Positions 8,170 to 44,175 of a stretch of DNA of 47,466 nucleotides are shown one piece after another. The first letter of the stretch is position 1. Each line of letters begins with the position of its first letter. The translations under genes were made by a program, and so were the position numbers. Source of the stretch: Pseudomonadota bacterium (GTDB lineage: Bacteria > Pseudomonadota > Gammaproteobacteria > Steroidobacterales > Steroidobacteraceae); the NCBI GenBank assembly GCA_021805865.1, contig JAJZDX010000035.1, forward strand, positions 1 through 47,466, given 5' to 3'. Below the pieces are notes generated by a model. The model made no database searches, was not told the DNA's origin, and saw only the letters and a program-made list of their open reading frames with translations.

Positions 8170-8883
8170 TCAGCGCTCCGCCGTCGCCCGCGCATCGTCG
8201 GCACGGGTGCGGCATGGCGCGCGCGTCAACCGTCCCTCGATCGAAATCCGCCGCGCGCCGGCGCGCACGTCGATCACGGCGTGCCCGTAGCGCTCAACGT
8301 GAACGGATTTGCGGGCAAGTCCACTGGCGCGCGCGCGAATATTCACCCGCGTATTGCCGCCGGCATTGACGTAGGCGCGCGCTGCGTCCTCGGCTATCAA
8401 GCCGACTGTGGCGTTATCCCACCCGCGCAACGTGACGTGACTCGAGTCTCGCGCGGCGAGCGCCCCTCGCGAGCGGTCGAGGTAGTAGCAGTAGCCGCGC
8501 GCCTCACCGCTCAAGCGCGCATTCAGTTCGCTCCTGTCGTGCGCGCGCACCATGAGGTCGGTTCCCCCCGCAGCACTTACTTCGAGCGTGGCGGCAGCGC
8601 GAACGTCAATCTCCGCCCGCGAGGCATCCGAGAGACGAAGATTCACTGCCGCGTGGTCGAATATGGCGAGTTTGACGGTGGCGGCTTCGGCGAGGCCGAG
8701 CGAGAACCGCACCTCATCGCGCACTTCGATCAAGGGATAGGTGGCATTCGAAAGGAGCGAAAGACTGAATCTCCCACTACCGGAGAGCGCGATGTGCGGG
8801 TAGCGTGCCGCCAAAGCGCTATCGAGCGCCGTTTGGTCGCAGCAGATCACATGCTCATCGGAGTGCGCCGAGGCCGTGCTCAT
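8170..8883 (-). CDS. Beta-helix-like repeat protein A, paralogue of the 21.1 kb gene
   Basis: A 237-residue protein of unknown function built from short alternating repeats such as LMVRAHDRSELNARLSG, SHVTLRGWDNATVGLIAEDA and VNAGGNTRVNIRARASG. Alternating hydrophobic and polar positions with G/D turns suggest a right-handed beta-helix. The N-terminus HVICCDQTALDSALAARYP parallels VMCRTQSALDKALLERPG in the second copy, so the two are paralogues. The ATG at 8883 has GAGGGGT upstream and gives the same N-terminal spacing as the paralogue; an ATG at 8958 is possible. It ends in ATAER. No signal peptide is seen, so it is probably cytoplasmic. Confidence 0.7.
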   Translation of the reverse strand: MSTASAHSDEHVICCDQTALDSALAARYPHIALSGSGRFSLSLLSNATYPLIEVRDEVRFSLGLAEAATVKLAIFDHAAVNLRLSDASRAEIDVRAAATLEVSAAGGTDLMVRAHDRSELNARLSGEARGYCYYLDRSRGALAARDSSHVTLRGWDNATVGLIAEDAARAYVNAGGNTRVNIRARASGLARKSVHVERYGHAVIDVRAGARRISIEGRLTRAPCRTRADDARATAER

Positions 8884-8973
8884 CGCGCACCCCTCGAGCC
8901 GTGCGCGTCGGATAGGGAACACGAGTTGAATTCTTTGGACATCGTTGACCTCGGACATCAAGCAGTCGCTTAC

Positions 8974-9012
8974 GCGCTTCCTCTCCATTCCGCGCAATGC
9001 GCTGCACACCTC
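8974..9012 (-). repeat. Intergenic leader repeat upstream of beta-helix gene A
   Basis: In the coding direction this copy reads GTGCAGCGCATTGCGC then GGAATGGAGAGGAAGCG, closely matching the copies near 20.9 and 41.2 kb. It lies about 90 bases upstream of the chosen start. Confidence 0.6.
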
Positions 9013-9052
9013 TGTCGCTCTTGACACGGTGGGGACCCCTGCATCTGAATAA

Positions 9053-9331
9053 CTACCGCGACAGCGAGGAGGACGAATCGCGTGCGGGGCGACGCGCGCG
9101 ACGAATCATCACTGGCTCGCCCGCAGGGAGGCTCCATTCAACGCCGAACGAGTCGGCGATCTCGCGCACCGCGAGCACTCCCGCAACGTCCTTCAGCGGC
9201 GCGAGTTTCTCGAGCTCTAGAATCGTCCAATCGAGCGACAGAGCGCCCGCCGCCCATCGCTCGAGCACCCCGCGCGCGGAGTCGGGCAAGTCCCCGAAGC
9301 GGGTCGTGACGCTCTTAACGCTCGAGGTCAT
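9053..9331 (-). CDS. Small unknown protein paired with PIN-domain gene
   Basis: A 92-residue protein not recognised. It begins MTSSVKSVTTRFGDLPD, has a predicted helical middle (ARGVLERWAAGALSLDWTIL) and a basic Arg-rich tail ending SSLSR. Its start overlaps the end of the PIN gene by 17 bases in another frame, so the two are probably co-translated. PIN nucleases are often paired with small antitoxins, which makes an antitoxin role possible, but no DNA-binding fold is evident and the order is reversed from the usual one. Confidence 0.6.
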   Translation of the reverse strand: MTSSVKSVTTRFGDLPDSARGVLERWAAGALSLDWTILELEKLAPLKDVAGVLAVREIADSFGVEWSLPAGEPVMIRRARRPARDSSSSLSR

Positions 9332-9932
9332 GACTCACTCTCCCCTTGCGTACAGCATGAGCCGCCTTGTGCTCCGGAAAGGATCGCTCGCCGGCCTTGA
9401 TGCACTCCACGACCCCCTCCCGTGATTCGATGAGTCCACAGCGCTCACAATCCTCGAGAAACGAGAGCGTGGTCTCAATGGTGACGTTCATGTCGGGCAT
9501 ATCGACCTTCGACTGCTTGAACATGCGCATCAGCGAGCCGTTGTCGTAGATCACCATGGCATGCCGCTCGGTACCCTCGACGTAGTGCTGGATGTACTGG
9601 AACGTCGCGAGCTCGCCGATGTTCTTCACCCGCGCCTCGGGACTGACGCGCCGTAATGCGGCGAAATCCCGTCCAGCCGGCGTCTCGGCGACCTCGAGCC
9701 AGCCTTCCTGGCGTCCTTTTTCGATCCACGCGGCGAGCCGTCCCGCGGCCGCAGGAAACGCTCGCTCGAACGCCGGATGCGTGGCCTCGAGATGCACCGC
9801 GTCCGGCACCACGACGTGCCCCGAAAATCGCTGTAGTAGATCAAGATGTGCGGCCTTGGCGAGGCTCGAGAGCGGACTTGCGTCTGCGCTTATCACATCC
9901 ACCTTCATCCCATCGCGCGCCGATCCGGGCAT
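9315..9932 (-). CDS. PIN-domain nuclease-like protein
   Basis: A 205-residue PIN-domain protein. The four acidic positions of the fold are visible: VISADASPL (Asp about 17), VHLEATHP, NIGELATFQYI and VIYDNGSLM. PIN domains are Mg-dependent ribonucleases, most often VapC-type toxins, so the likely activity is RNA cleavage. The start MPGSARD has GGGGG upstream; a longer frame overlaps trbI and was rejected. It shares its 3' end with the 92-residue partner. The protein ends SHDLER. Whether it is a true toxin or a regulator of the element is inference. Confidence 0.75.
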   Translation of the reverse strand: MPGSARDGMKVDVISADASPLSSLAKAAHLDLLQRFSGHVVVPDAVHLEATHPAFERAFPAAAGRLAAWIEKGRQEGWLEVAETPAGRDFAALRRVSPEARVKNIGELATFQYIQHYVEGTERHAMVIYDNGSLMRMFKQSKVDMPDMNVTIETTLSFLEDCERCGLIESREGVVECIKAGERSFPEHKAAHAVRKGRVSHDLER

Positions 9933-14045: not shown

Positions 14046-14474
14046 TCAGCGCTCGTAGTCTTGACCCTTGTTTCGTTGCGGCGGCACCCGTGACGGAGTG
14101 GGTCGCTCTTGTCTCTCGGTCTCATCGGCCGACAATTGCTTTTGCAGTCCTTGAACCTGCACCAGGAGATGTGGCAAATCTTCCTGAACGGTGTTCCAGA
14201 CGACATCAAGATTTATGGCAAAGTAGCCATGTGCGAGGCGATCACGCATCCCCATGAGTTTCTTCCAATCCACTTCCGGGCACATTTCCCGAGTGGACTC
14301 ACTGAGTTCCTTCGCGGCTTGGCCAATGATTTCGATATTTCGCACGACCGCATCTTGTGTCCACTCGTCACGTAAGAACTGCTCCTTGTCCAATCCCTCC
14401 AAATGCGTAATGACTTTCTTGATGCCATGCTCCATGTCATCTAGATAATCGGTGTCACGTCTCCCGTTGCTCAT
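14046..14474 (-). CDS. hepT: HepT toxin of a MntA/HepT toxin-antitoxin pair
   Basis: A 142-residue HEPN-family ribonuclease toxin. The family motif R-x4-H-x-Y is present as RDRLAHGY (about 77-84); the tyrosine is the residue that MntA-type partners AMPylate. Upstream helices QDAVVRNIEIIGQAAKELSE are typical of HepT. It overlaps the MntA gene by four bases. The C-terminal 35 residues are polar, unusual for the core family, and end GQDYER like many cargo proteins here. The module is visibly less GC-rich than its surroundings, which suggests separate acquisition. It probably stabilises the element. Confidence 0.88.
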   Translation of the reverse strand: MSNGRRDTDYLDDMEHGIKKVITHLEGLDKEQFLRDEWTQDAVVRNIEIIGQAAKELSESTREMCPEVDWKKLMGMRDRLAHGYFAINLDVVWNTVQEDLPHLLVQVQGLQKQLSADETERQERPTPSRVPPQRNKGQDYER

Positions 14475-17897: not shown

Positions 17898-19037
17898 TCA
17901 TCGTTCCATTCCGTCAACCGCGCGCTCCCGCAGGCGACGACGGGCCGCAGGTTCCGCACTCTCCGGTAGAGCGAGCGCCTCCTGCCGGCCGGGTTCGCGT
18001 TCGATGGATTCCGGTAGCTCCCACCGCACGCCCTCGCCGCCCAAAAGGAAACGCACCGGGGCAACGCTATCCGTCACTGCCCACGGAATCCGTGCTTCCC
18101 CATCCGTGACCGCGCCGCCGGCCTTTTCGGCGCGCCTGATGAGTTCCTCGCGGTCACTCGCACCCCGTGACGCGAGCGACACCACGACGACCGTCCCGCT
18201 CGGTACCGGTGGAGCCGCCTCCACCGCCTTGCGATACTCGCCGATCAGGCGCTTGTACACGCCCGGGGTCTCGAGTTCCTGCCTCCACAGCCCCCGCACA
18301 TAGGCCCCGACGATCGAATACGGCCACCCGGCCTCCTTCCAGTCCCCATTGATCCGCTCAATGCGCGTGTGCGCGTCGATTCGCCGCATCTCAGGACGCG
18401 GCGCGGCGGCCAAAGCCTGGCGGACCTGTACTGGCGCCGCGGGCAGCGGCCGGTACCCCAATTCCGCGCTGCGAGGGTTCATGCCAACGACGGCCGTTAC
18501 GATGTGCGATGGGATGCCCCGCCAAGGGCGCCCCGCCAGCACCGTCGCGATGAGATCAGAGTGCTGATACAGCGATACCCGAACCGTCTCGCCTTGTTCG
18601 AGCCGCTCGAGCGCGCGAGCGCCCTCGTCGGCGTGCGCGGGCTCGAGAGCGCCGTAGCGCTCACGTACACTCGCCCACTGCGCCGTGCGCTCGTTATCGA
18701 GCCATGCGCCGCCCATCGGCTCCGGTTTGGCAAGGGCAACCTCGACGTCCGGCATCACGATGGGATTCTTCATCGCATTGAGCCACCGCTCGAGATAGGT
18801 CTCGGGCATGATATGACCGCTGCGACTCTGATTCATCCCGCCCTCGCAATAGGAGGCTGACTCGAACGCTCGCGCCAAGGCTACATCGAGACGGCCAATG
18901 GCGACACAACTCCACTCGGGATGGTGCGGATAGGTGTTCCTGTCGTAGAGCTTCTCGAACAGACACCAAACCGTATGCGCCGCGCCTTGCGGCTTGAACG
19001 CTGCTGCCTCTTGATCGACCACGATTGTTGCGCCCAT
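17898..19037 (-). CDS. Unknown 379-residue cargo protein
   Basis: Not recognised. The N-terminal part (WCLFEKLYDRNTYPHHPEWS, SCVAIGRLDVALARAF) looks like a folded alpha/beta domain, followed by segments such as VRVSLYQHSDLIATVLAGRP and SGTVVVVSLASRGASDREEL. No signal or membrane segment is seen. The ATG at 19037 has GAGGA upstream and begins ten bases after the previous cargo gene, so the two likely form an operon. It ends VDGMER. Confidence 0.7.
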   Translation of the reverse strand: MGATIVVDQEAAAFKPQGAAHTVWCLFEKLYDRNTYPHHPEWSCVAIGRLDVALARAFESASYCEGGMNQSRSGHIMPETYLERWLNAMKNPIVMPDVEVALAKPEPMGGAWLDNERTAQWASVRERYGALEPAHADEGARALERLEQGETVRVSLYQHSDLIATVLAGRPWRGIPSHIVTAVVGMNPRSAELGYRPLPAAPVQVRQALAAAPRPEMRRIDAHTRIERINGDWKEAGWPYSIVGAYVRGLWRQELETPGVYKRLIGEYRKAVEAAPPVPSGTVVVVSLASRGASDREELIRRAEKAGGAVTDGEARIPWAVTDSVAPVRFLLGGEGVRWELPESIEREPGRQEALALPESAEPAARRRLRERAVDGMER

Positions 19038-19047: not shown

Positions 19048-20904
19048 TCATCGTCCCGAATCTCGACCCGTACCCCGATTGCGTGCACCTGCCGACGCCC
19101 GAGCTCTGCAGGCAGTACCTGCCTTGCGCTGCGCGCGGCCCTCAGCCCGGCAACGTTCTTCCGCAGCGCTCGCCGCCCCCTCGAACACAACCCGCTCCTG
19201 CGCGCCGAGCGCGCGTTCAACCGGCTGAACGTGAAGGGTTGCACCAGACTCGTCCATCCGGACGTCGAGGATGTCACCGGGTTTCGCGCCGCCGAGTTCG
19301 TGCAGTCCCCCATCCGCGCGGCGCTGCGAGCGCCGCATATCGGTCACCAACAGTACCGGGGCGGGAGAAATTTCCGCATTGCGCAGCAGCGGATGCCCGA
19401 GGCGCATCTCCACCGCGGCCGTATAGGCCCTGCCGTCGGTACCTTTCGTATCGGCAAAGTGATAAACGCCGAGCACTTCCCCCATGAAGTGATCCCCCGC
19501 GCCGACTCGCATCGTTCTCACCGATTCCCAGGGAATCGGAGCCTCGCCCGCCCGTCCTTCATGGGTCACCCCGGCAATGCTCGCCACGCACGTATCAGGA
19601 GCCGTCATGAGTAGATCGATCGGTTTGCCGACCGAGGCCCGGACGGCGCTCTCAATCTCGGCGAGCGCTGCGGCCTGTGGCTGCCCATGATTACCATGGC
19701 CGAACAGACCCTTGAAATTGGCCAGTGAATTCCCGTCCGGCGCAATCACCGTCGTCAAAAGCCCGTCGGGCTCGCGGATCGCGAGCGCCCGCAGCTTGTG
19801 CGCCACAGCCACCAGCGTCCCGGTGATGTGCGCCGCCTCGCTCTCGCGCAATCCCAACACCTTGTCGCGCGCACTCGCGACATCGAGATCAGGCGCATCG
19901 GGTTGCGCGAACTCCTGCACGCGCTGCGCCTCGACGGGAACCGCGCGCAGTTCAACCGCCGACCACGGTCCTTTCGTCCCGCTGAGATCCCCCATGGCAT
20001 CCACGTTGCGCAGGCGGACCTCCTCGAGTACGCCCGCCAGGCCGTCGTAGATCACCTCTCCTGATGTACGCCCATCCTCGGTTTGGACAAGGGGGCACTC
20101 GGCCGAGACGATGCCGTAGCCCAGGGTGTGTTCGTCGCGTGCAAACGGCGGATGCTCCTGCGCCGGGACGGCACGCAGTTCGACCATCCGGTAAGGACCA
20201 TTGATCGCTGGATCGCGCGAATCGTTCAGGCGCGTAGTGATTTGCGCGCAGTGCTTCGGATCCCTCACCACGCCCAATGGCCCTCTCGAGCCATCGCGAT
20301 CAATGACGCAGTATCCGTAGACCGGGTATCGCAGGCGCTCGAGGGCGCGGTCGAAGAAGCCGCCCGCCTCGATACGGGCCGACAGCACCCGACTCGGCAT
20401 GAGCTCGCCGAGGGCGTTGAGCGTCGCGCTCGACGCGCCCCACTCCGTCTTCCCCACTACCCTGCCCACCGCAGGCACACCAGTCCCTTGCGTCTTTGCG
20501 AATTGCTCTACCGCGTTGCACACGCGTCGAGCGGCCGACGCACCCCATCCAGGGTGCTCGCCGCTGGCGTGACGAACGTAATCGACGAGCGCAATGGCCG
20601 AGGCGGAACACACGGCAAGCGCCGGTTGCGCACCTTCCATCGCCCTCTCGAGAACCTCCGCGGCCTGGCCAGCGAGACTCACCATATCCGTATCGAGGAG
20701 TCTGGGCCGGTCGAGCGGATTCGCCTCGAGCCGCCCGTTGGGCTCACGATACGCGACGCTCCTCAAGTTCTCCCGCGCAAGGCCCTCGGCGATCCGGGTT
20801 GCGGACCCGCTTCGCAGCTCATGGAACTGATGATTCGCGGGAAGCCGCTTCGCCAGCGCGGCCAGCAAACCGATCTCGTACGGATCACACACCTTCGCGG
20901 ACAT
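19048..20904 (-). CDS. Large unknown cargo protein sharing a domain with the 29.4 kb gene
   Basis: A 618-residue protein of unknown function. A central region (LLTTVIAPDGNSLANFKGLFGH in two parts, then IPWESVRTMRVGAGDHFMGEV) matches the protein at 29.4 kb, which has YVTVVSPDGRSLAHFEGLFG and VPWRSVDSVELRPGASVGGQF. Internal repeats of the type GPYRMVELRAVPAQEHPPF and GPWSAVELRAVPVEAQRVQE are about 120 residues apart. The C-terminus is Arg/Ala-rich and ends RDSGR. There is no membrane segment. The ATG has GGAGG nine bases upstream. It lies with two other cargo genes between trbE and trbJ. Confidence 0.7.
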   Translation of the reverse strand: MSAKVCDPYEIGLLAALAKRLPANHQFHELRSGSATRIAEGLARENLRSVAYREPNGRLEANPLDRPRLLDTDMVSLAGQAAEVLERAMEGAQPALAVCSASAIALVDYVRHASGEHPGWGASAARRVCNAVEQFAKTQGTGVPAVGRVVGKTEWGASSATLNALGELMPSRVLSARIEAGGFFDRALERLRYPVYGYCVIDRDGSRGPLGVVRDPKHCAQITTRLNDSRDPAINGPYRMVELRAVPAQEHPPFARDEHTLGYGIVSAECPLVQTEDGRTSGEVIYDGLAGVLEEVRLRNVDAMGDLSGTKGPWSAVELRAVPVEAQRVQEFAQPDAPDLDVASARDKVLGLRESEAAHITGTLVAVAHKLRALAIREPDGLLTTVIAPDGNSLANFKGLFGHGNHGQPQAAALAEIESAVRASVGKPIDLLMTAPDTCVASIAGVTHEGRAGEAPIPWESVRTMRVGAGDHFMGEVLGVYHFADTKGTDGRAYTAAVEMRLGHPLLRNAEISPAPVLLVTDMRRSQRRADGGLHELGGAKPGDILDVRMDESGATLHVQPVERALGAQERVVFEGAASAAEERCRAEGRAQRKAGTACRARASAGARNRGTGRDSGR

Positions 20905-21062: not shown

Positions 21063-21815
21063 CTAGCGCTCGAACTCCTCTTCCGCCGAGAGCGGCTTCC
21101 TGCGCGGAGCTGTCGGACGGGCCGAGAGACTCACCTCCTGAGCGAGCCCCCGTCGATCATCGATCTTCACGCGATCCTGTCCGCCCCTGATCTCGAGGTG
21201 CCCGCGCTCGCGCAGCGTGACATTGACCCCGCTATCCGCTTCGCGCGAGCGCGCATTGACGGTGAGTTTGCCGTCGCCGCTCACGACCGCCTCGGCGCGG
21301 CCATGATCGTAGACTCGCACCGACTGGGCGCCGCGCTCGTCCGCTTTGAGCACGCCATGGCTCTTGTCATCGATCATAACGGCCGTCACGCTGTCCCCGA
21401 ACCCGATGGCCGACGGCCGGCTGTTGTCGTGAGCCAGAATCACGGCCTCGCTGTTCTCGTTCGCAACGACCGATACCGCGCTGACATCCCATGCGTCCAC
21501 GTCCACGCTCGCGTTGTGGATGGCGTTTACGGAAACGCGGCTGCGATCGAACGCCATCACACGCACCGTGGCGGTCTGCGCCGCGTTGACCGTCGGCGCG
21601 GCATCCCCCTTGGCCGTGAGCACCAGTCCTGCATTATCGAATACGCAGACTTGGCGAGAGGAGCGTTTCTCGAGCATCGTCATCACAAACGTTTCCTGAC
21701 CGTGCAGATGTACCGGCGCGCCGGGGCGCTCCAAGAGCGCCTTGTCGAGCGCGGATTGCGTCCGGCACATTACGGGCTCTGCCGTCTTCTGCCCTGCGTG
21801 TGAATCGGCTGTCAT
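21063..21815 (-). CDS. Beta-helix-like repeat protein B, paralogue of the 8.2 kb gene
   Basis: A 250-residue protein of unknown function. Many short repeats of alternating hydrophobic and polar residues are visible: VRVMAFDRSRVSVNAIHNAS, VDVDAWDVSAVSVVANENSE, AVILAHDNSRPSAIGFGDSV, TAVMIDDKSHGVLKADERG. This suggests a parallel beta-helix. The N-terminal CRTQSALDKALLERPGAPV matches its paralogue. The start MTADSHAG has GGGAG upstream. It ends EEEFER. Such proteins occur in mobile elements and phages, but a role cannot be assigned. Confidence 0.72.
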   Translation of the reverse strand: MTADSHAGQKTAEPVMCRTQSALDKALLERPGAPVHLHGQETFVMTMLEKRSSRQVCVFDNAGLVLTAKGDAAPTVNAAQTATVRVMAFDRSRVSVNAIHNASVDVDAWDVSAVSVVANENSEAVILAHDNSRPSAIGFGDSVTAVMIDDKSHGVLKADERGAQSVRVYDHGRAEAVVSGDGKLTVNARSREADSGVNVTLRERGHLEIRGGQDRVKIDDRRGLAQEVSLSARPTAPRRKPLSAEEEFER

Positions 21816-26708: not shown

Positions 26709-26900
26709 CTACCGGCTGTGATCCTCTCCGTCCCGTCGCCGTGCCAGCCGCCGCAGCAGTTCGCGCTGCTCTTCGTCGGTCATGCCGACGAGTTCCATGG
26801 CACTCAAGAGTCCTCGACCCGACAAACTCCGCGCGCGCTCGCGACGCCGGCCGGCCCCCATGCGGAAATTGACCTCGGGGTGCGGAGGTCTTCTACCCAT
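26709..26900 (-). CDS. Small basic protein downstream of traG
   Basis: A 63-residue Arg-rich protein: MGRRPPHPEVNFRMGAGRRR followed by a helical MELVGMTDEEQRELLRRLAR. It overlaps the end of traG by eight bases, which favours translational coupling. It ends GEDHSR. It could be a small relaxosome or coupling accessory, but this is only context. The ribosome site is weak. Confidence 0.5.
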   Translation of the reverse strand: MGRRPPHPEVNFRMGAGRRRERARSLSGRGLLSAMELVGMTDEEQRELLRRLARRRDGEDHSR

Positions 26901-31399: not shown

Positions 31400-31864
31400 T
31401 CAGCGGCCCTGATCGGCCTCCTGTCCCTTCGCCTGCGCCTCCTTGGCGCGCTGTGCCTTGACGTACTCGGAGACCCCGGCGATGTGCTCCCAGTGCTTTT
31501 CGCCGTTTTCGTCGAAGGTGCAGCGGCTCAGATAACTCGCCCGGACGTTCGAATTCTGGTACACGACGCCGTCCTTCTCGTTCGTGTCGTGAGTCACCTT
31601 GCCCTCGATCCCGACGAACTGTCCCTTCTTCAGCTTCTCGGCGACCTTCTCCGCCTCCTTGCCGAAGAACGACACCGAATGCCAGGTCGTGGTCCGATCC
31701 TCGCCCTCGCCCTTGTTCTCGCCGACGCTGAAATTCGCCACCTTCACGCCGTCCTTGGTCGTCCGAAGGACCGGATCACGGCCGAGATTACCGTAGATTT
31801 TGGCGACCTCGGTCTTCGTCCCGCCGCTTTCGGCACCCTGCTCGGGGACATTCTGCTGAGTCAT
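31400..31864 (-). CDS. ssb: Single-stranded DNA-binding protein
   Basis: A 154-residue SSB with one OB fold: EVAKIYGNLGRDPVLRTTKD, KVANFSVGENKGEGEDRTT, WHSVSFFGKEAEKVAEKLKK, GQFVGIEGKVTHDTNEK. It would coat transferred single strands in the recipient. The C-terminal tail lacks the DDDIPF tip that recruits host partners and ends EADQGR instead. The start MTQQN has TGGAG upstream; a GTG three codons earlier is less likely. Confidence 0.92.
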   Translation of the reverse strand: MTQQNVPEQGAESGGTKTEVAKIYGNLGRDPVLRTTKDGVKVANFSVGENKGEGEDRTTTWHSVSFFGKEAEKVAEKLKKGQFVGIEGKVTHDTNEKDGVVYQNSNVRASYLSRCTFDENGEKHWEHIAGVSEYVKAQRAKEAQAKGQEADQGR

Positions 31865-32573: not shown

Positions 32574-33041
32574 CTACCGCTCCATCTCCGGGACGGCGCG
32601 GCGGTTCGCTCGTACCTTATGATCACGTGGGAGTTCCGCGGTGGCGAGCTGCTGTAACGCCGCATCCACATCGAGTCCGCGCTCGGTGAAGTACGAAACC
32701 CGTCCCTGAATCGTCCGAATCGCCGCGAGACAGTCCTCGAGACAGAACTCCCGCGCCCACACGGCGCAGGGTACCGCCCAGTCGAGGTCCTCCTCGAACG
32801 CCGTAGACAATCCGCTGAAGGTTCGAAAGTCCTTCGCCCATGACGGCAGCGCGGCCTGCCGTTCTTCGGAAATCAGGATGCCGCCGTGACAATCCGTGCT
32901 CACAGACCAGATGCCGGGCGCTATGGCCTCACAACTCATGTCCCGGTGTCCCCACGGGGTCGTGAGCGGCGCGGGCACATCCTGAAATGAGTGCCCTTGC
33001 CGACTGGGCGCCGCGCCCGCCGGAGCTTCCTTGGTTTCCAT
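32574..33041 (-). CDS. DUF7007-like protein
   Basis: A 155-residue protein with features of DUF7007: TPWGHRDMSCEAIAPGIWSV, STDCHGGILISEERQAALPS, FEEDLDWAVPCAVW. This family occurs on plasmids and ICEs next to DUF2958 and ArdC genes; its role is unknown. The start METKEAPAG has GAGGAG upstream. The longer upstream frame overlaps the LPD7 gene and is rejected. It ends VPEMER. Confidence 0.75.
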   Translation of the reverse strand: METKEAPAGAAPSRQGHSFQDVPAPLTTPWGHRDMSCEAIAPGIWSVSTDCHGGILISEERQAALPSWAKDFRTFSGLSTAFEEDLDWAVPCAVWAREFCLEDCLAAIRTIQGRVSYFTERGLDVDAALQQLATAELPRDHKVRANRRAVPEMER

Positions 33042-34386: not shown

Positions 34387-34410
34387 GACGACCCCTTTGG
34401 GGAGATTGGT

Positions 34411-35110: not shown

Positions 35111-36565
35111 CTATCCACGTCCTTGGCGCTGCGCCCGCAGTTCACCCGGACCACCGTTCGCGCGGGCCCTGAACCGTTCATCACGATAATACTCAACCTT
35201 CCCACACCGGAACGCCGTACGACCGGGTACGAGAAGAAGTTCCTCATGCTGCGAAATTCCCATGATGTCTGCCGCCGATAGCGCAGACCGCGCGGCGAAG
35301 AATTCCGCCGTCTCGAGACTGCTCGGCGTATGCGCCACCAGCAAGGCACAATTGGCCACGATGGATTCGGCTTCCGTTTCCCAATACATTTGGCTGATCT
35401 GTCCTCTCGATTGCGCTACGAGGACCGCAGTCATCGCGCATCCACCGAACCTTGCGAGACCCTCAGCGAGTGCAGGAAGTCTCCCGAAGACTCCAAGATC
35501 ATCGATGAGCAGCAGCAATCGCCCTTCCGCCTTCTTCCCGACGAGCACTCCCAGACGCCGACGGATCACCATATCCACCACCACCTTCGCAAGCACTTGA
35601 TGCCGAGGGTAGTTGAATGGCGATCCCGTGATGTAGAGCGAGGTATTTTGCCCACCAGACATCAGTGATTCAATGGAAAAGTCAGACTCCCTGGTGCTCG
35701 CGGCAACCACCGGGTCTGCAAGGAAGGCGAGCGCCTGCCGTGCGACCGCGATGATACTGGCGGCTTCCTGATGGGGTCTTTCGAGCCAGCCCCCCATGAT
35801 TTCTTCCACGGCTTTCCATGCGGCAAGGTCTGTGGCATGTTCTGCGATGCCCGTCGCCGCATATCGGTCACGGAAATACGCGGCGACTTCGCGGATAATG
35901 TAAAACGCTGTCGAGACGGATGATGTTTCCGCCACCTTCATGGGCTGCTGCGCATGCGCGGCGTGCAGCGGTCCCCCATCAGTGAGAATCGCAAGCACAG
36001 TGGCAAGCGAAGCCTCGGTGATCTCACCGACTGAATCTTCGTAGAGGCAGACAAAGAGCACGATCGCCGTGAGCAATCCTATCGCCGCGCTCGTCCAATG
36101 ATCCACCTCGCGCTGATCCGGGTTCACGAGCAGCGCACACAGATGACGCGCTTCTTTCACCAGATCGTGAGCGCATTGAATCTCACGCAGCGGATTGAAG
36201 CGAGCGGAATCGGCAGCCCCCGGCTCGAAGCGCAGAACGCGCTGGCCGAGGTGGCGTTCTCGGAAATCTCGGGTGATGCCATGAGTCTCCCCTTTCACAT
36301 CGAACACAACGACGCTGTCCTCCCAAGTAAGCAGGGTCGGCACGGTGATACCTGCGGTCTTCCCGCTCCGGCACGGCGCGACCACGAGAACATGCTCGGC
36401 TCCAAGATGCCGGACGAGGCGCGGCGCGCCTTTCCGCTCCCTGCACTCGCCGAGCACGATCCCGCCGCGGACTGTCTCATCGGGAAGCAATCCAGCCGCC
36501 TCCAGTTCTCTTCTCGCAGTCCAGCGTTCGTCATCCCGATGCCTCTTGCGCATGAATCCGAACAT
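35111..36565 (-). CDS. Second TraG/VirD4-like ATPase without membrane anchor
   Basis: A 484-residue paralogue of the TraG coupling protein. It starts directly in the soluble region and lacks the two N-terminal membrane segments. Walker A is APCRSGKTAG (about 63-72), FDVKGETHG follows (about 88-96), and Walker B reads LLLLIDDLGVFG (about 351-362), with Asp where the coupling-protein family usually has Glu (DEF). DFSIESLMSGG and the arrangement of later blocks match the main TraG. It may be a soluble adaptor for a different substrate, or a decaying duplicate. The frame is intact and its base composition is somewhat lower in GC than traG. Confidence 0.82.
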   Translation of the reverse strand: MFGFMRKRHRDDERWTARRELEAAGLLPDETVRGGIVLGECRERKGAPRLVRHLGAEHVLVVAPCRSGKTAGITVPTLLTWEDSVVVFDVKGETHGITRDFRERHLGQRVLRFEPGAADSARFNPLREIQCAHDLVKEARHLCALLVNPDQREVDHWTSAAIGLLTAIVLFVCLYEDSVGEITEASLATVLAILTDGGPLHAAHAQQPMKVAETSSVSTAFYIIREVAAYFRDRYAATGIAEHATDLAAWKAVEEIMGGWLERPHQEAASIIAVARQALAFLADPVVAASTRESDFSIESLMSGGQNTSLYITGSPFNYPRHQVLAKVVVDMVIRRRLGVLVGKKAEGRLLLLIDDLGVFGRLPALAEGLARFGGCAMTAVLVAQSRGQISQMYWETEAESIVANCALLVAHTPSSLETAEFFAARSALSAADIMGISQHEELLLVPGRTAFRCGKVEYYRDERFRARANGGPGELRAQRQGRG

Positions 36566-36592: not shown

Positions 36593-37246
36593 TTACCGCT
36601 CGGCACCGACGTGCCGAGCCGTGGCGGGCACTCGCGCCGCTGCGGTTCGCCCTGCGAGCGACGGATCGCTCCGGCCGCGCGCCGCCTGGCGCGCCTTCGC
36701 CTGCGCGAACAGTTCGCGCCAGCCCTCGTATTCGAGGTGCTTCGCGAGCACCTCGGCGGCGGCCGTGACCGGAACACCGTACGCGAGCAGCACGCGCGCG
36801 TTGTCGAAATGGGCACAGCGCGTCGCGGTATTGAGCGCCGCCTCGCCCTTGCGATCCAGTGGCGCGCCGGCCTCGATGAGATAAGTGAGTGCGCGCGCGC
36901 CGGCCTCCGTACCGACGCTCGCTGCGGTCACGAGCAACTGCCCGTCGTTCGCCGCAGGATCGGCGCCGTGCTCAAGAAGCCACAGCACCGCATTGTCCCG
37001 AGCACGGCCGAGCGCCACGGCGAGCGGACCGCCATGGTCGCCATTGATGGCGGCCCCATTGGCGATCAGCAGTTCCAGAATGTCCGTGTTGCCGAGAGAG
37101 GCCGCGGCCTTCATCGGTCGGCACTGGTTCGCATTCACGTCCGCGCCATGGTCGATGTACGCCTGAACCTCGAAAATATTCTGCGCGTTGATCGCGTTGA
37201 TCAGGTGGCTGTCCACCTCGCGCATACGCGGAATTGGCTCGCTCAT
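36593..37246 (-). CDS. Ankyrin-repeat protein
   Basis: A 217-residue protein with about four ankyrin repeats: VQAYIDHGADVNANQCRPMK, ILELLIANGAAINGDHGGPL, AVLWLLEHGADPAANDGQLL, ALTYLIEAGAPLDRKGEAAL. Ankyrin repeats bind proteins; some are secreted effectors. No signal peptide is present. It overlaps the upstream gene by four bases and ends HVGAER. Confidence 0.85.
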   Translation of the reverse strand: MSEPIPRMREVDSHLINAINAQNIFEVQAYIDHGADVNANQCRPMKAAASLGNTDILELLIANGAAINGDHGGPLAVALGRARDNAVLWLLEHGADPAANDGQLLVTAASVGTEAGARALTYLIEAGAPLDRKGEAALNTATRCAHFDNARVLLAYGVPVTAAAEVLAKHLEYEGWRELFAQAKARQAARGRSDPSLAGRTAAARVPATARHVGAER

Positions 37247-37872: not shown

Positions 37873-37873
37873 C

Positions 37874-38374
37874 TCAACGCTCCATCCCCTGTGGGGCGCG
37901 CTTCGCCTGCCGCGTGGACTGCACTGCATGGCGCTGCCGTACTTCGATCTCCGCCTTCACCTCACGCAACGATCGCGGTTCGAAGTGTAGGTCGCAGTCC
38001 ACCCCGTGCTCAGTGAGCTCCGCAATGCTGATGTATCCGAGTTCGGCGTTCTCCGTATCGCCGTTCAAGACGGTATAGCCGAACGCCTGCGTCACTCCGC
38101 CGTCCTTGTCCTTCTCGGTGATATACCAGTCATTACCGTCCTTGAAGTAGTGCAGGCAGACCATCGCCTCATCACCCTTGCCATCCTGCTCATAGGTCTG
38201 GGGCATGATTGCCACGCGATTGCCGAACTCGAGGAGCTTCTCCTGGAAGAACCGTCGCTCCTCGCCGACCCGGCTGAGATCGAGCATGACCTGAAGCTGC
38301 TGACGCGACACGAAAGGGCGTAAGACTTCGCCCGCCGCCTCGACCGTCATAATCGGCTGTTCTCCCACGTTCAT
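37874..38374 (-). CDS. DUF2958-like protein
   Basis: A 166-residue protein whose C-terminal part carries DUF2958 features: WYITEKDKDGGVTQAFGYTV, NAELGYISIAELTEHGVDCD and LHFEPRSLREV. This family is common next to antirestriction genes on mobile elements; function is unknown. The start MNVGEQPIMTVEAAG is one base after the upstream stop. It ends PQGMER. Confidence 0.78.
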   Translation of the reverse strand: MNVGEQPIMTVEAAGEVLRPFVSRQQLQVMLDLSRVGEERRFFQEKLLEFGNRVAIMPQTYEQDGKGDEAMVCLHYFKDGNDWYITEKDKDGGVTQAFGYTVLNGDTENAELGYISIAELTEHGVDCDLHFEPRSLREVKAEIEVRQRHAVQSTRQAKRAPQGMER

Positions 38375-38375
38375 C

Positions 38376-38852
38376 TCAGCGCTCCATTTCCGCAGCAATG
38401 CTGCCCCGCCGTGAAGCACGCTCCCGTTCATTTTCGATCGTCCGGCGCTCAGTAGCCGCCGCATCGGCGTTTGCCTGGCTATCGACCGCACGGCGAACTT
38501 CCGCTTCCTGCTCGGCCTCGATCGCGCGACGATTGCGCTGCTCATCCTCAGCGAGCGCCCGCGAAACCCGCACCCCGGCGAGATCCGCATCGAGCTCCGA
38601 GTCGTACGGCCCGAGCGCCACTCCGGCATATACCCCGGATGAGAGTGTCGTGATCACCGGTACCGCGCTCGCCTCGCCCTTTCTCCCGTTCAAGCACGCG
38701 AGCGCCCGTGCGACCTTGCGGCAGGCCGCACCCGATGTCTCCTCGATGCCGAGATCGATGATGGCGCAGTGCTGCCCCGGCTCGCATCCCGCAGCGAATG
38801 CCGCGCGGTACTTCACTTGCTCGATCAAGATATCGTCTTGCGACTTCTTCAT
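38376..38852 (-). CDS. Unknown cargo protein with Ala/Glu/Arg coiled-coil tail
   Basis: A 158-residue protein not recognised: MKKSQDDILIEQVKYRAAFA at the start, then CAIIDLGIEETSGAACRKVA, and a long charged helix (RALAEDEQRNRRAIEAEQEA onward). The ATG at 38852 has a full AAGGAGG six bases upstream. The leader and first codons are duplicated 200 bases upstream. It ends AAEMER. Confidence 0.68.
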   Translation of the reverse strand: MKKSQDDILIEQVKYRAAFAAGCEPGQHCAIIDLGIEETSGAACRKVARALACLNGRKGEASAVPVITTLSSGVYAGVALGPYDSELDADLAGVRVSRALAEDEQRNRRAIEAEQEAEVRRAVDSQANADAAATERRTIENERERASRRGSIAAEMER

Positions 38853-39097: not shown

Positions 39098-41041
39098 TCA
39101 TCGCTCAATACCCGATTCCAAAGGGCGCACCGGCCTCGCGCGGTGGGGTGCGGCCCCGTCCGCCTGTCCGATTGCCAGTGTTCTTCGGGCCTTCAGCGCC
39201 CGTGCAAGATCGGCTTCCCGAGTCGGGACATTCCCCAAGTGTTCCCCCGTCCCCGGATCGCGGAGCGAGAGATCGCCATTTGCTCCGCATTCGACCCTCA
39301 GCAATTCGCCCGCAGCGGCATCGATCCTGCCGGCAAAGAACGTCAATCCGTGCTCCGCGCACACCGACTCCAGCACTTGCGCCTGACGCAACGTGACGGT
39401 TGCGGTTTCCAGCGCCTGCGCAAGATCGTGTTCTCGCGCGAGCACATAGTCCGCCGCCTCCCCGGCTTCTTTGGCGGCCCGGAAGATCTCGTTCTTGTCG
39501 GACTTCAGAGCCTTCGCCCAATGCTGCAGGTACGCCTTGTGCTGATTCTCGAAGTCAACCTCCGCGCTTGGAGCGTCACCCGATGCCGCGACCGGCGCGA
39601 TGCCGGTCTCGGCGGCAAGAAAAGCGCTTGCGAGCTCCGCGCGCAGTTCCTCGCGCGCATATCCCTCGGACCCAAAAGCGTGCGCGCCGACAATCCCATC
39701 ACGATTGAGCCGGTGCGCAGCGCCGGTCGAATGTCCAATCTCATGTAGGGATGTGGCGTAATACGCCTCCTGCGAGACGAACCGGTCGCGGGAGGGCAGC
39801 CGGATGCCGTCGGCGGGCGGCACGTAACAAGCCCCATCAGCGCCTTCCTTGAACTCCACGCCGTCGGCGCGCATGGAGGCCATGAGAAACTCCCCGCGTG
39901 TGTGTGCGTCGATCTGCTCGCCGCATTCTGCGAGCGGCACCAGCTTCCCCGGATCGAGTCCCCCGCACTGCTCGATGTTGAAGACCGTATAAATCCGCGA
40001 GGAGAAGGTATCGAGGGTTTCGTGCGCATCCCGCCACGAAACCACCTTGCCGCCGTGCTCCACGCGCAGCGTGCTCTCATGCGCTGCCGAAGTCGGCCGC
40101 AACGCACTCTTATTTCCGATCTCCACTCTCCCGCCGCTCGATTCGCCAAAGACTCGTACCGCCGCGCGATCGAGCGTCACCGTCACATCCTTACGCGCCC
40201 AGAACGGCCTAGGCTTCCACATCTCGATCTGCACACCGTGCGCGCCCTTCTTCACATGTCCGCCGGCCTGCCGAACTTGATTGAAGGTCAGCCAGCGCGG
40301 ATCGCCATAACCGCACTCGAACTGTGTGAGCATCGTCATGAACCGATTGATGCCCTGATAGCGATGTCCCGAGAGTCCGTTCATCGGCCGGTCGGTGGAC
40401 CGCCACGGCCTCTTCCACGGGATATCGCCCTGCTCGAGCGCCGCCACCATCTTGTCGGTGATCTCCTGGCGGAAATCACGGCCTTGCGAAGGCCGTGAAC
40501 TTTGCGGCGGGTGCTCCTGCGTAGGGGCGGTTTCCGGCGTCACGGGGGACTGGTCCAGACCGTCATGCAACGTCGGCGCTTGGGAATCGAAGATGCGCGC
40601 GGTTTCGGCCGTGATCGCGAGCGCCGTGGCGAGCGCATCCCCCGCGCGAGAGCCTGGCAAAGCGGTCAGAATTGCCACGAGAGGCCCCTGGCCAGCACCG
40701 TCCTCGACCTGGCCAGCGGGTTTCGAAACGAGCGCCGACATGCCCTCGAACCATTCGATGCGATTTCCGTCGACCGCGCCCGCACGAGGCTCGTCGTCGC
40801 CGTAGACCTCGCGGATCATGCGTCGAAACTCGGCAGACTCGGCGAGGCGCGCCGCCTGGGCGACCGACTCGAGGTCATCCGCGCGACCGGTCAAGATGAC
40901 CGCGTACGAGCCGACGAGCACCGCAGCGTGCTTCACGGACTTCATGACCTCAGACGGCGAATATCGGCCTGGCGTCACCGTGGAGGACGCCAGTAAACTT
41001 CCCAGGTCTGGCAGTGCCGACGTAGCCTCAACCGCGCTCAT
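39098..41041 (-). CDS. ardC: ArdC-type antirestriction protein with extra N-terminal domain
   Basis: A 647-residue protein. The ArdC N-terminal ssDNA-binding domain (about 189-300) is seen as DFRQEITDKMVAALEQGDIP, WKRPW and NGLSGHRYQGINRF. A zincin-like metallopeptidase domain follows with HEIGHSTGAAH (about 433-443). ArdC proteins protect incoming DNA from type I/II restriction, and the pSa protein is reported to enter the recipient with the DNA. A 185-residue N-terminal extension of unknown function and a C-terminal part (about 540-647) exceed the usual 300-residue size. It overlaps the small acidic gene by four bases and ends ESGIER. Confidence 0.9.
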   Translation of the reverse strand: MSAVEATSALPDLGSLLASSTVTPGRYSPSEVMKSVKHAAVLVGSYAVILTGRADDLESVAQAARLAESAEFRRMIREVYGDDEPRAGAVDGNRIEWFEGMSALVSKPAGQVEDGAGQGPLVAILTALPGSRAGDALATALAITAETARIFDSQAPTLHDGLDQSPVTPETAPTQEHPPQSSRPSQGRDFRQEITDKMVAALEQGDIPWKRPWRSTDRPMNGLSGHRYQGINRFMTMLTQFECGYGDPRWLTFNQVRQAGGHVKKGAHGVQIEMWKPRPFWARKDVTVTLDRAAVRVFGESSGGRVEIGNKSALRPTSAAHESTLRVEHGGKVVSWRDAHETLDTFSSRIYTVFNIEQCGGLDPGKLVPLAECGEQIDAHTRGEFLMASMRADGVEFKEGADGACYVPPADGIRLPSRDRFVSQEAYYATSLHEIGHSTGAAHRLNRDGIVGAHAFGSEGYAREELRAELASAFLAAETGIAPVAASGDAPSAEVDFENQHKAYLQHWAKALKSDKNEIFRAAKEAGEAADYVLAREHDLAQALETATVTLRQAQVLESVCAEHGLTFFAGRIDAAAGELLRVECGANGDLSLRDPGTGEHLGNVPTREADLARALKARRTLAIGQADGAAPHRARPVRPLESGIER

Positions 41042-41172
41042 CGCTCGTACTCCTCTTCCGTGGCGATCTGCCCGCCGAGCGCGCGGGCCTCGGCGAGGCT
41101 TCCGGCCTCAAGGAGCATGAATTCCCCGTCCGCGCCATCATCGTCACTATCGCCGATCGGTTCGTCGTACAT
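41038..41172 (-). CDS. Very small acidic protein
   Basis: A 44-residue acidic protein: MYDEPIGDSDDDGADGEFML then LEAGSLAEARALGGQIATEE. A strong GGAGGT lies five bases before the ATG, and the stop overlaps the ardC start (GAGCGATGAGC). It ends EEEYER. DNA-mimicking acidic antirestriction proteins exist, but 44 residues is very short for one; it could also only couple translation into ardC. Confidence 0.62.
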   Translation of the reverse strand: MYDEPIGDSDDDGADGEFMLLEAGSLAEARALGGQIATEEEYER

Positions 41173-41845: not shown

Positions 41846-41848
41846 CGG

Positions 41849-42874
41849 TCAGCGCTCCGCGCTCACCGGGTCTCGCTTGATGACCGTTCGCTCCCGCCCC
41901 CGTTCCGGCAACCGCACTTGCGCAGGCTCGCGCGCGGCGGCACAGGTTGCTGCGATCTCATTACCTGACCCATCGCGCAACTGGTCACGGGCATCGTAGC
42001 CAAGTGGCGTGATACCACTTGCCCGGGCCGGCACCGCAACACGCGCCCGCGATCCAAGCGCCAAGGCGGCCTCGACCGCCATGCGCTGCCCGATGAAATC
42101 CTGCTCGGGCCGAGTCGACAGCCCGTCCGCATCCGCATAAAAGATCGCGTTGTCCGTCACCCGGCCCGCCAAGCTGCGGGCAAGCATCGGCAAATTGCCG
42201 GCCGACAGCGCCGCAATGACCGGTACTCTCATCACGCGGTAGATCGCAAGCGCTGTCCCGATACCCTCGCAAATGATGAGACGATTCGCCCCGCGCAGTT
42301 CCCGTGCGGCCGCGAGCGGGTCATCCCCGCAGGGGATCACCGAAAAAGCCCCCTGCGCCTGCGTTCCCGGGGTGAATTTCTTCCCGCCGGCCGCCGCAAC
42401 CATCTGCATCCCACGCCACACCGGATCGCCTCGTTCATCGAAGGTGAGCACGGGCACCATCAACTGCCCGTGTTCGACGCGCAGGCCCGCAGGCGGCAAG
42501 AGAGGATCTCGTAGATAATGGTGCCCGTGGGCGGGCCGACCGCCTCGCCACGATACTCGAGCCGTCGCCGCGGCGTGCTCGTGTTCGGCCGCTCGTTCTG
42601 CCGCGCGCTCCGCTTGCCGCCGCTGGATCTCCTCGCGTTGCGCCGCGCTGATCATCCCCTCGCCGCGAAAATAGAGCGGCTGACCCTCAGCCTTGAAGTT
42701 CACGACCCAACCCGACCCGTCGGGTCGCAGCAAATAGGTCGCGTCGTTCCGGCCCCGCGCATCACCCTCCACGTCGGCACGGTGAATCTTGCCGTCAGCC
42801 AAACACAGGCCGGGGTCGATCTGCACGCCGCGCTCGGCGGCCCATGCGATGAACCTCTCGGGACTGAGCATCAT
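41849..42874 (-). CDS. Toprim-domain primase-like protein
   Basis: A 341-residue protein of plasmid TraC/P4-type primase relatives. The N-terminal part (FIAWAAERGVQIDPGLCLAD, GKIHRADVEGDARGRND) is the usual prefix of this family. The Toprim domain (about 195-290) shows the catalytic Glu in LIICEGIGTALA (Glu about 203) and the DxD in FYADADGL (248-250). It could prime the transferred strand; the RP4 TraC primase is known to be passed to recipients. No zinc finger is seen. It overlaps the upstream gene by four bases and ends PVSAER. Confidence 0.85.
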   Translation of the reverse strand: MMLSPERFIAWAAERGVQIDPGLCLADGKIHRADVEGDARGRNDATYLLRPDGSGWVVNFKAEGQPLYFRGEGMISAAQREEIQRRQAERAAERAAEHEHAAATARVSWRGGRPAHGHHYLRDPLLPPAGLRVEHGQLMVPVLTFDERGDPVWRGMQMVAAAGGKKFTPGTQAQGAFSVIPCGDDPLAAARELRGANRLIICEGIGTALAIYRVMRVPVIAALSAGNLPMLARSLAGRVTDNAIFYADADGLSTRPEQDFIGQRMAVEAALALGSRARVAVPARASGITPLGYDARDQLRDGSGNEIAATCAAAREPAQVRLPERGRERTVIKRDPVSAER

Positions 42875-43368
42875 CGCGATTCCTCGATCGTCTGATGGGA
42901 TCGAACCCTGGAACGCGCTTGCGCTTGCTGCGCATACCGGATCGCATCATGCGCGATATCGGCGAGCGCCTGCGGGGAAGCCCCATCGCGGGCCTCGCAG
43001 GCGATCTGCTGCATGGCCGCATAGAGGTACTGAGCGGCGGTGAGCCGCTGCTGCCGAGTCGGTATCGTCTCCGAAGTGGTCGCAGGGTTCGGGTCGACGC
43101 CCAAATCGGGTTGGCGTGCCAACTCATACCGTTGACACTCCTCCTCGGTGAGTTCCCGTTCGCAGGCAATGACCCCGTAGCGGTGGCGGCTCACTGGGAG
43201 AGCCGGGCGCAAATGCGCGATTTCCCGCGGTACCTCCACATAGTCCCACTTCAGTCCCGGGGGCATGGTCGCGAAGCCCGCCGGCCGCAGGAGCGGCCGA
43301 TAGCAATGTCGCGAAGCTCGAACACCGCTGCGAACGCCCGAATCCTCGATCTCAATGTGCTCGCTCAT
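42871..43368 (-). CDS. Unknown cargo protein upstream of the Toprim gene
   Basis: A 165-residue protein not recognised: a beta-rich N-terminus (GLKWDYVEVPREIAHLRPAL, SRHRYGVIACERELTEEECQ) and a helical C-terminal half (QRLTAAQYLYAAMQQIACEA, LADIAHDAIRYAQQAQAR). The overlapping ATGATGA junction couples it to the primase-like gene, so it may serve the same process. It ends TIEESR. Confidence 0.65.
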   Translation of the reverse strand: MSEHIEIEDSGVRSGVRASRHCYRPLLRPAGFATMPPGLKWDYVEVPREIAHLRPALPVSRHRYGVIACERELTEEECQRYELARQPDLGVDPNPATTSETIPTRQQRLTAAQYLYAAMQQIACEARDGASPQALADIAHDAIRYAQQAQARSRVRSHQTIEESR

Positions 43369-43377
43369 CCCGATCTC

Positions 43378-44175
43378 CTACCGCTCGATTCCGCTCTCCA
43401 CTCTCACCGCGACTCGTTTAGTCTCGGCAAGTCGGCCAAAATGAGCCCCTTGTGTTTTCGCGCGCTCCATGAGCACACCCTCGATGCGCGCGCCGCGAAG
43501 GTCCGCTTCGCCGAAATCCGCGCTGCTCACCGAGCAGCAGTACATAACCACCTGTCGGAGGTCTGCCGCGCGCAGATCGATCGAGTCGAGCGCGGCCAGA
43601 CGCATCTCGGCACCGACGAACCGGCCGCCGCAGCAGACCGCCGTGGCGAGATTCGTATCGTTTAGCCGCGCCTCCGAGAAGTCAGCGTGGGCGAAGGCAC
43701 CCCCGTAGAGACAGGCGTTCTCCACGCGCGCACGGCCGAACTGCGCTCGGGGCAAGACTGCATGTGAGAAATCCGTCCGCGTGAGAACCGCGTCGTCGAA
43801 TTTGACATCCTCCCCACAGGCACCCTTGAAGGAAGCACCGTCGCACTTTGCACGGCTGAAATCCGTACCGCCGAGCTCCGTTCGATCGAATCGCGCATGC
43901 GCGAGTCGCGCGGCGACGAATCGGGTGTCCCGCAGGTGACACGCCGTAAACACGGCACCCTCGAGATCACAGTCGGAGAAGTCCTCCCCCTGGAGGTTGC
44001 ATTTCTGTTTGAAATACGCCCGCCGCAAGTCGCAGCCGGTCAGGCTGACACCAGCGGCGAGCGCCGCAACGGCCGCCTCCCCGATGCGTTCCCCCTTTGA
44101 GAGCCCCTCGGCCCGGTCGTATTCGAAAACCGCCTCACGGGAGGTGCATTTGTGGATCGTTACCGTATCGCTCAT
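43378..44175 (-). CDS. Pentapeptide-repeat protein
   Basis: A 265-residue protein made of A(D/N)Lxx-type pentapeptide repeats from about 45 to 250: FSDCDLEGAVFTACHLRDTR, ARFDRTELGGTDFSRAKCDG, ADFSEARLNDTNLATAVC, DLRAADLRQVVMYCCSVSSA. These fold into a right-handed quadrilateral beta-helix. Some family members mimic DNA and protect gyrase; no specific match is claimed. The N-terminal 45 residues are non-repeat. It ends ESGIER, as ArdC does. Confidence 0.88.
   Translation of the reverse strand: MSDTVTIHKCTSREAVFEYDRAEGLSKGERIGEAAVAALAAGVSLTGCDLRRAYFKQKCNLQGEDFSDCDLEGAVFTACHLRDTRFVAARLAHARFDRTELGGTDFSRAKCDGASFKGACGEDVKFDDAVLTRTDFSHAVLPRAQFGRARVENACLYGGAFAHADFSEARLNDTNLATAVCCGGRFVGAEMRLAALDSIDLRAADLRQVVMYCCSVSSADFGEADLRGARIEGVLMERAKTQGAHFGRLAETKRVAVRVESGIER

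Follow-up and report, generated by a model that had tools for sequence, protein, structure and literature searches.

A C-terminal end in arginine shared by unrelated cargo proteins of a Trb-type conjugative element and by relaxases

Conjugation genes and tagged cargo in the window

The stretch of DNA analysed here (the window) is the whole 47,466-nucleotide contig JAJZDX010000035.1 (C55) of a 4.68-Mb Steroidobacteraceae genome in 83 contigs. It carries a Trb-type conjugation region comprising TrbB, TrbC, VirB3, TrbE, VirB8, TrbG, TrbI, TrbL and TraG, along with PilO-, secretin-, T2SSE- and T2SSF-like genes, and cargo genes are intermixed with them. Many of the cargo proteins end in Glu-Arg or a similar dipeptide closed by arginine, and this tag sits at the extreme C-terminus and is common to unrelated proteins (Table 1). 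Pfam supports HepT, ArdC, Toprim_3, ankyrin, pentapeptide, DUF7007 and SSB among the cargo, as named in a preliminary description made from the letters alone, whereas the names DUF2958 (37874), PIN (9315) and beta-helix (8170 and 21063) given there found no Pfam or NCBIfam match. ArdC, MPTase-PolyVal, LPD7 and Toprim domains, the hallmarks of polyvalent or establishment proteins, are present in a conjugative element. For ten tagged proteins of no recognised family, NCBIfam gave no informative match above its cut-off, and structure predictions for two family-less tagged proteins were set aside (mean pLDDT 41.0 and 44.3).

Table 1. Tagged genes of the window and selected untagged genes, with the ends of their relatives in elements C178 and C50
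Feature	Position	Strand	Family evidence	C-terminal end	C178 relative	C50 relative
Tagged cargo, no family	8170..8883	-	no Pfam match	ATAER (GAGCGC TGA)	ESAER	
Tagged cargo, no family	9315..9812	-	no Pfam match	SHDLER		
Tagged HepT-like protein	14046..14474	-	PF01934	GQDYER, closing a ~19-residue C-terminal extension		
Tagged cargo, no family	17898..19037	-		VDGMER (GAACGA TGA)	GDGMER	EFSR
Tagged cargo, no family	19048..20904	-		RDSGR	RDSGR	EEDLGR
Tagged cargo, no family	21063..21815	-	no Pfam match	EEEFER		
TrbE ATPase, core gene	21919..24435	-	PF03135	untagged		
Tagged cargo	25885..26580	-	Pfam match sub-threshold only	NDDLER	GEDLER	EEDLGR
TraG coupling protein, candidate tag reader	26893..28938	-	PF02534	untagged (PHG)		
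Tagged cargo	29435..30208	-	no Pfam match	EREER		
Tagged cargo	30205..30927	-		RGQER	RGQER	RDPGR
Element SSB	31400..31864	-	PF00436	EADQGR	EADQGR	EADLGR
DUF7007 protein	32574..33041	-	PF22653, on longer ORF 32574-33266	VPEMER	PGIER	EDTGR
Second, shorter coupling-protein-like protein	35111..36490	-	PF02534, on longer ORF 35111-36565	untagged	present	present
Ankyrin-repeat protein	36593..37225	-	Pfam match	HVGAER	HMGAER	
Tagged cargo	37874..38374	-	no Pfam match	PQGMER		
Tagged cargo	38376..38852	-		AAEMER	AAGMER	ADDLGR
ArdC (ArdcN + MPTase-PolyVal)	39098..41041	-	PF08401, PF18818	ESGIER	EADIGR	EEGVER
44-residue tagged protein	41038..41172	-		EEEYER	QEEYER	
Toprim_3 protein	41849..42874	-	PF13362	PVSAER	PMSVER	CELDR
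ORF with weak DarA_C match	42871..43368	-	PF18789, sub-threshold	IEESR	LDGER (gene in same place)	
Pentapeptide-repeat protein	43378..44175	-	PF00805	ESGIER	QSGIER	
Cut gene, C-terminal 81 residues, probably relaxase	47219..47466	-	LPD7 at 47297-47455	RGKSRED (exception to the tag)		

A simple gene caller found 41 genes in the window, 16 of which end in Glu-Arg and 20 in arginine of any context. All sixteen minus-strand Glu-Arg ends listed in the preliminary description were present at their open reading frames (ORFs). It had also counted ends in another residue plus arginine, of which the SSB end was recovered; the caller omitted short arginine-ending ORFs (28935-29567, 30932-31393, 42871-43368 and 37243-37929), and some of these may belong to the earlier set. 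Among 271 genes called on other contigs of the same genome, none ended in Glu-Arg, 8 in Gly-Arg and 32 in arginine (Fisher test against the window, p = 4e-16 for Glu-Arg and p = 1.8e-7 for arginine). This control comprised 17 stretches and is not purely core chromosome, because L015, L016 and L168 were fetched beside or because of other matches. Counted over all frames of both strands, Glu-Arg codons precede 22 of the window's 1711 stop triplets, 16 of these being the genes themselves, and only 3 of 503 non-gene ORF ends (at least 30 codons) read Glu-Arg. In the 40 called window genes longer than 60 residues, arginine has a frequency of 0.475 at the last position against a mean of 0.142 at positions -2 to -20; Glu-Arg closes 15 of these genes, while elsewhere in the tail it averages 0.58 of 40 per position.

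The conjugation machinery itself is nearly free of the tag. Pfam supports 13 window genes as Trb, Tra or Pil parts, and TrbI (PPYGR) is the only one with an arginine end; the preliminary count of 18 core proteins with the same single exception includes about five more that are placed by position only, none of them ending in arginine. Untagged channel genes interleave with tagged ones (17898, 19048 and 21063 fall between 16660 and TrbE), arguing against a local effect of base composition.

Conservation of the end in related elements

Two further elements carry the same kind of end. On contig C178 of genome G013, a syntenic relative of the window of which 60 of 60.7 kb were analysed, 32 of 63 genes end in arginine and 25 fit the motif [DEGS]x[EGDS]R. 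The second element, on contig C50 of the same genome as the window, has arginine at the end of 23 of its 44 called genes and the motif in 19, compared with 2 of the 271 control genes; here the cargo ends mostly in Gly-Arg (EDTGR, EDEMGR, EEDLGR, EADLGR). Among 36 reciprocal best pairs between the window and C178, arginine is kept in all 18 that end in it, with the arginine codon identical in a fraction of 0.56, and of the 18 window proteins without it, 17 belong to pairs in which neither member has it. The 13 pairs between the window and C50 behave likewise (9 of 9 kept, 0 of 4 among the remainder), and in the nine that keep arginine, positions -5 to -15 are 0 to 0.33 identical. The 618-residue protein at 19048, for instance, has 55-64% identity to its relatives, yet in the C50 tail nothing but Gly-Arg can be aligned. 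Glu-Arg, Gly-Arg, Ser-Arg and Asp-Arg interchange among orthologues.

Selecting for [EGDS]R ends across the three elements gave 67 genes. In 55 of them position -4 is Asp, Gly or Glu, and position -3 is most often Leu or Met, so that the consensus is roughly [D/E/G]-hydrophobic-[E/G/D/S]-Arg-COOH. Glu-Arg as the whole motif was rejected, since C50 and C178 orthologues replace Glu by Gly, Ser or Asp; the C-terminal signal proposed in the preliminary description stands, in this broader form. The tag is written with five arginine codons (AGA included), both GAG and GAA for Glu, four Gly codons and all three stops. Together with the varied spacing to the next gene, this variation indicates that conservation concerns the end of the protein. 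A C-terminal signal on unrelated cargo that is selected at the protein level is strongly supported.

The charge of the preceding tail differs between the elements. Over the last 20 residues, the mean net charge is +2.25 in 20 tagged window genes versus -4.30 in 20 tagged C50 genes, and the last eight residues contain on average 1.95 acidic residues in the window and 3.25 in C50. Net positive charge was therefore rejected as a common feature; the opposite charges of the two elements leave the last residues, not bulk charge, as the constant part. A DNA-level pattern search ([DE][DE]-L/F-GR-stop) did not discriminate, with matches in 15 of 60 relatives and in about 17 of 60 for the reversed control. 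A Fic protein of C50 (DUF4172-Fic, L011:6854-8056) carries the tag as LDPGR; Fic proteins are a class known among effectors of type IV secretion systems (T4SS).

The tag on relaxases, plasmid genes and ArdC proteins

The tag is also present on relaxases, the classic substrates of type IV secretion. On C50, the relaxase has Relaxase, TraI_middle and LPD7 domains and ends in REPDR, and LPD7 relaxases on contigs C58 and C16 of the same genome end in SEDLGR and RDEGR; of the six relaxase matches in this genome, two run off their contigs and one, on C80, ends in ARTL. The C50 relaxase has 287 homologues, and among the best 120 of these, 104 have an arginine end (Glu-Arg 43, Gly-Arg 37, Asp-Arg 14), with arginine at a frequency of 0.87 at position -1 versus 0.03 at position -2. 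When these homologues were clustered at 60% identity, arginine was the majority end in 9 of 9 clusters. In named plasmids, 7 of 9 relaxases examined end in arginine.

Several of these plasmids carry the end on other proteins too. We covered 35 of 56 features of RA3, 30 of 44 of R388, 29 of 60 of the Diaphorobacter plasmid and 44 of 59 of pAKD16, and parts of the records L172, L173, L174 and L267-L271. In the IncU plasmid RA3, which has a VirB-type channel, 4 of the 35 coding sequences (CDS) end in Glu-Arg, namely the relaxase (DEDER), ArdC (EDMER), an LPD7 protein (TENER) and KfrC (EDDLER), and four different codon pairs are used. One further CDS ends in arginine (FWR), and the VirB parts, coupling protein, MobC, ParA and ParB are untagged. 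The EDDLER gene, of phosphoribosyltransferase type, was identified as kfrC because the published coordinates end at 4756, just 5' of the annotated CDS stop. An IncU plasmid of A. veronii gives the same picture; in its annotation (L270, L271), a single 67-kb record contains two copies of the VirB region, one of them with several split genes. R388 has the end on TrwC (EAGR), a 200-residue protein (EHGR) and SSB (RRDR), and its ArdC ends in KEAA. In the Diaphorobacter plasmid, 7 of the 29 CDS examined end in arginine, including the relaxase (GISR), ArdC (EIAR), a RepB-type primase (GIER), KfrB (AIGR) and a 348-residue protein (SLAR). A 39.6-kb Ferrovum contig holds a relaxase (QDIGR) and an ArdC (REMGR) together.

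In IncP plasmids the relaxase TraI ends in KGRSR in 3 of 3 examined (among L127, L172 and L173), a 115-residue pAKD16 protein labelled KfrA ends in RGRSR, and one KfrB ends in KFSR; the KGRSR and RGRSR ends are possibly an IncP version of a shared tag. IncP TraC ends in RRAARIG or AAKIG in two plasmids, and RP4 TraC, cited in the preliminary description as a tagged class of exported protein, therefore does not serve as an example. KfrC of two IncP-like plasmids, which are not those of PMC8124265, ends in SARPA and RTIT. No such pattern was seen in the genes examined of Moraxella, Sphingomonas, Afipia and one mobilizable Klebsiella plasmid.

ArdC allowed a comparison between vehicles. Arginine ends 102 of the best 120 of 682 ArdC protein matches; among loci, it ends 30 of 74 in genomes and 3 of 79 on viral contigs, after loci whose frame ran off the DNA had been dropped (6 of 80 genome and 1 of 80 viral). 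Genome loci with a T4SS match within their 10-kb flanks have the arginine end in 26 of 55 cases and those without in 4 of 19, whereas viral loci without a T4SS match in their 3-kb flanks have it in 2 of 78 (p = 2.4e-10 against the 26 of 55). The sole viral locus with a coupling-protein (TraG) match, L175, is arginine-ended. ArdC thus carries the tag far more often when conjugation genes lie nearby than when it is encoded on viral DNA. Much of the untagged ArdC beside T4SS genes belongs to a TraC-like clade ending in AARIG or similar. In a smaller set of 15 loci, 12 ends were visible (4 of the long type with arginine, 8 of the standard type without) and 3 were uncalled. The ArdC alignment was built partly from rows picked for the tag, and its invariant last arginine was not used as evidence. 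TraC/ArdC-type proteins of several Burkholderiales loci (L083, L087, L088, L090, L091, L098, L099) share the end PRRAARIG.

HepT gave a different result, with arginine ends in 13 of the best 120 of 184 homologues, the window protein included; four relatives (65-68% identity) stop ~19 residues earlier, and two (60-62%) end in SER. The preliminary description would have counted Glu-Arg ends on homologues from chromosomes or other plasmids as evidence against a signal. Such ends do occur in part on other plasmids, but not on most HepT homologues or viral ArdC proteins. Because some plasmid homologues keep their ends while those two groups mostly do not, we read the signal as one shared among conjugative elements. 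Its density varies. Around 78 other ArdC loci, Glu-Arg ends 21 genes versus 8.5 expected from tail positions and Gly-Arg 21 versus 8.0, and dense tagging was found in the window, C178 (L047), C50, L048 (5 of 9 genes ending in arginine) and L061 (10 of 28). The tag thus has a dense form in one element group and a sparse form, on the relaxase and a few cargo proteins, elsewhere, and it is absent from some conjugative plasmids. L061 is a contig of a Bacillota-labelled metagenome-assembled genome, where genes ending in EPDR, ELDR, DMDR and DNDR lie beside ArdC; mis-binning is possible. The dipeptide Thr-Trp ends 19 of the 1145 genes near ArdC (78 loci, L049-L126), ~24-fold over its tail frequency.

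Possible role of the shared end

Given a position-fixed, protein-level tag on unrelated cargo that is shared with relaxases, we consider it probable that the conjugative type IV secretion apparatus reads the end as a very short C-terminal recognition signal, which would mark proteins that travel to the channel or dock there with the DNA. The part read would be the terminal arginine with its preceding residue, and the reader would most likely be the coupling protein (TraG/VirD4). The tag would mark relaxases and establishment proteins (ArdC, SSB, Toprim, LPD7, Fic and KfrC-type), which may enter the recipient with the DNA. One published interaction supports contact between a tagged C-terminal region and the coupling protein: in the two-hybrid assay VirD4 is bound by the C-terminal part of RA3 KfrC, in co-immunoprecipitation full-length KfrC binds it too, with KfrC-His6 co-precipitating VirD4 434-641, and KfrC-YFP relocates to VirD4 foci (PMC8124265). 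As a sign of tag-dependent transfer through the coupling protein, this binding is suggestive only. IncP KfrCs showed no binding to their own TraG in the experiments described there (PMC8124265).

Delivery through the Trb channel, as originally proposed, remains the best inference with the help of the relaxases, RA3 and the KfrC-VirD4 binding, but it would not be limited to Trb, because RA3 and R388 have VirB-type systems. The ArdC precedent cited with that proposal falls away: besides its KEAA end, R388 ArdC was found not to require export for its activity, although the authors do not rule export out (PMC7213743). A wider claim, on which belief and doubt are nearly balanced and which we put forward tentatively, is that many mating-pair-formation type T (MPF_T) systems in Proteobacteria share a free C-terminal [E/G/D/S/A]-Arg as their export code, for relaxases and establishment proteins alike, so that the final two to four residues of its genes would reveal which proteins an element delivers.

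Several observations weigh against recognition by the secretion apparatus. Window-type relaxases end in RED (RGMNRED in C178, the cut gene of the window, and 4 of the best 120 homologues), while two proteins of the machinery end in arginine, the Diaphorobacter TraG (PMSR) and the window TrbI, a channel part (Gly-Arg). Within the genome ArdC loci alone, the comparison of T4SS nearby or not gives p = 0.059, and the viral ArdC proteins form a different branch of the family, so the contrast with them is partly phylogenetic. The excess of arginine around the 78 other ArdC loci is weak (159 of 1145 genes, 0.139 versus 0.079 at other tail positions), and in named plasmids ArdC or TraC is arginine-ended in 3 of 11, two of them IncU, and untagged in 8. 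In RA3, VirD4 was still co-precipitated by KfrC with a C-terminal His6, and NIC, which ends in DEDER, did not bind VirD4 in the two-hybrid experiments described (PMC8124265). A free arginine end is thus neither proven necessary nor proven sufficient for binding.

In RA3 KfrC, dimerisation and the binding of KorB also depend on the tagged C-terminal region (PMC8124265), and a second, shorter coupling-like protein lies amid the cargo in the window, C178 and C50. Both would suit a docking peptide for a hub in the donor or recipient (a partition filament, the relaxosome or that second coupling-like protein) that gathers proteins without secretion. We regard this as unlikely, since tags are found in plasmids with a single coupling protein in the stretch examined (RA3 and Diaphorobacter) and the ParA and ParB ends of both are untagged. 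A charged C-terminus is also a plausible shield against tail-reading proteases in the donor or recipient. Control of protein stability is nevertheless quite improbable as the role of the tag, because it is missing from core proteins of the same operons and present on the element SSB, and a shield should neither single out relaxases and cargo nor be absent from viral ArdC.

That each family simply inherited its own C-terminus, with the likeness due to chance or common descent, would fit the retention of arginine over large distances in the ArdC and relaxase families (102 and 104 of the best 120), but we give it very little credence: at least six Pfam-distinct families share the tag in one window, the last residues swap among Glu-Arg, Gly-Arg, Ser-Arg and Asp-Arg in orthologues whose remaining tails are unalignable, RA3 repeats the tag in other families, and the HepT comparison spoke against it. 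A DNA-level cause, with the gene ends serving as ribosome-binding sites of the following gene or as recombination sites, was rejected as scarcely credible on codon (AGA included), stop and spacing variation (-17 to 934 bases from a tagged end to the next called start) and on the four codon pairs behind four Glu-Arg ends in RA3, despite GGAG a few bases 5' of the stop in some ends and a 4-base overlap with the next start in a few genes.

A secretion signal of the proposed kind resembles known ones in part. No prior description of a terminal-arginine tag was found in searches of the open-licence PMC literature, and a conserved C-terminal domain such as the ~120-residue XVIPCD of Xanthomonas (covered by Pfam scans only) does not describe these tails, which are unalignable between orthologues beyond the last residues. 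The Dot/Icm apparatus of Legionella is another class of T4SS. Its E-block is a Glu-rich C-terminal region (PMC10025392), which the C50 tails may resemble; unlike the E-block, the tag here needs no Glu (Gly-Arg, Ser-Arg and Asp-Arg ends) and its last residue is fixed. The arginine motif of Agrobacterium VirB/VirD4 substrates (VirF and others) is likewise C-terminal, arginine-based, common to several effectors and presumed to work through the coupling protein, but that signal is a cluster of positive residues (PMC10025392), whereas here one terminal arginine after Glu, Gly, Asp or Ser is constant and tail charge is variable; the tagged C50 tails, with a mean of -4.30 over the last 20 residues, are not net-positive. 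The same review notes that T4SS effectors have no consensus signal (PMC10025392). Many proteins are moved by conjugation systems, RP4 among them, in some cases through C-terminal signals, and in the F plasmid conjutome the C-termini were sorted by charge and hydrophobicity and the signals were diverse, with no terminal-arginine tag encountered in the available text (PMC11288057). Phages and conjugative elements encode polyvalent proteins whose ArdC, MPTase and related domains have been predicted to be delivered with the DNA; the text available of that account describes no C-terminal tag and has no occurrence of "C-terminus" or "C-termini" (PMC5512222).

The choice of proteins that pass from a conjugative element into the recipient, and their selection by the coupling protein, is an open question in the field. 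A readable end tag common to relaxase and cargo, if true, would predict delivered proteins, including the family-less 17898, 19048, 25885 and 30205, and because the well-studied laboratory plasmid RA3 carries it, the tag could be studied by changing two residues.

Two further observations concern the cargo region. The second, shorter coupling-like gene sits amid cargo in all three elements (window 35111-36490; L009:16718-18187; L161:12471-13673) and could be a dedicated receptor. An LPD7 protein (33058-34419, minus strand) and its C178 relative end in AAELGA and the C50 match in EADVGL, ends that are tag-like without arginine and perhaps belong to proteins retained in the donor.

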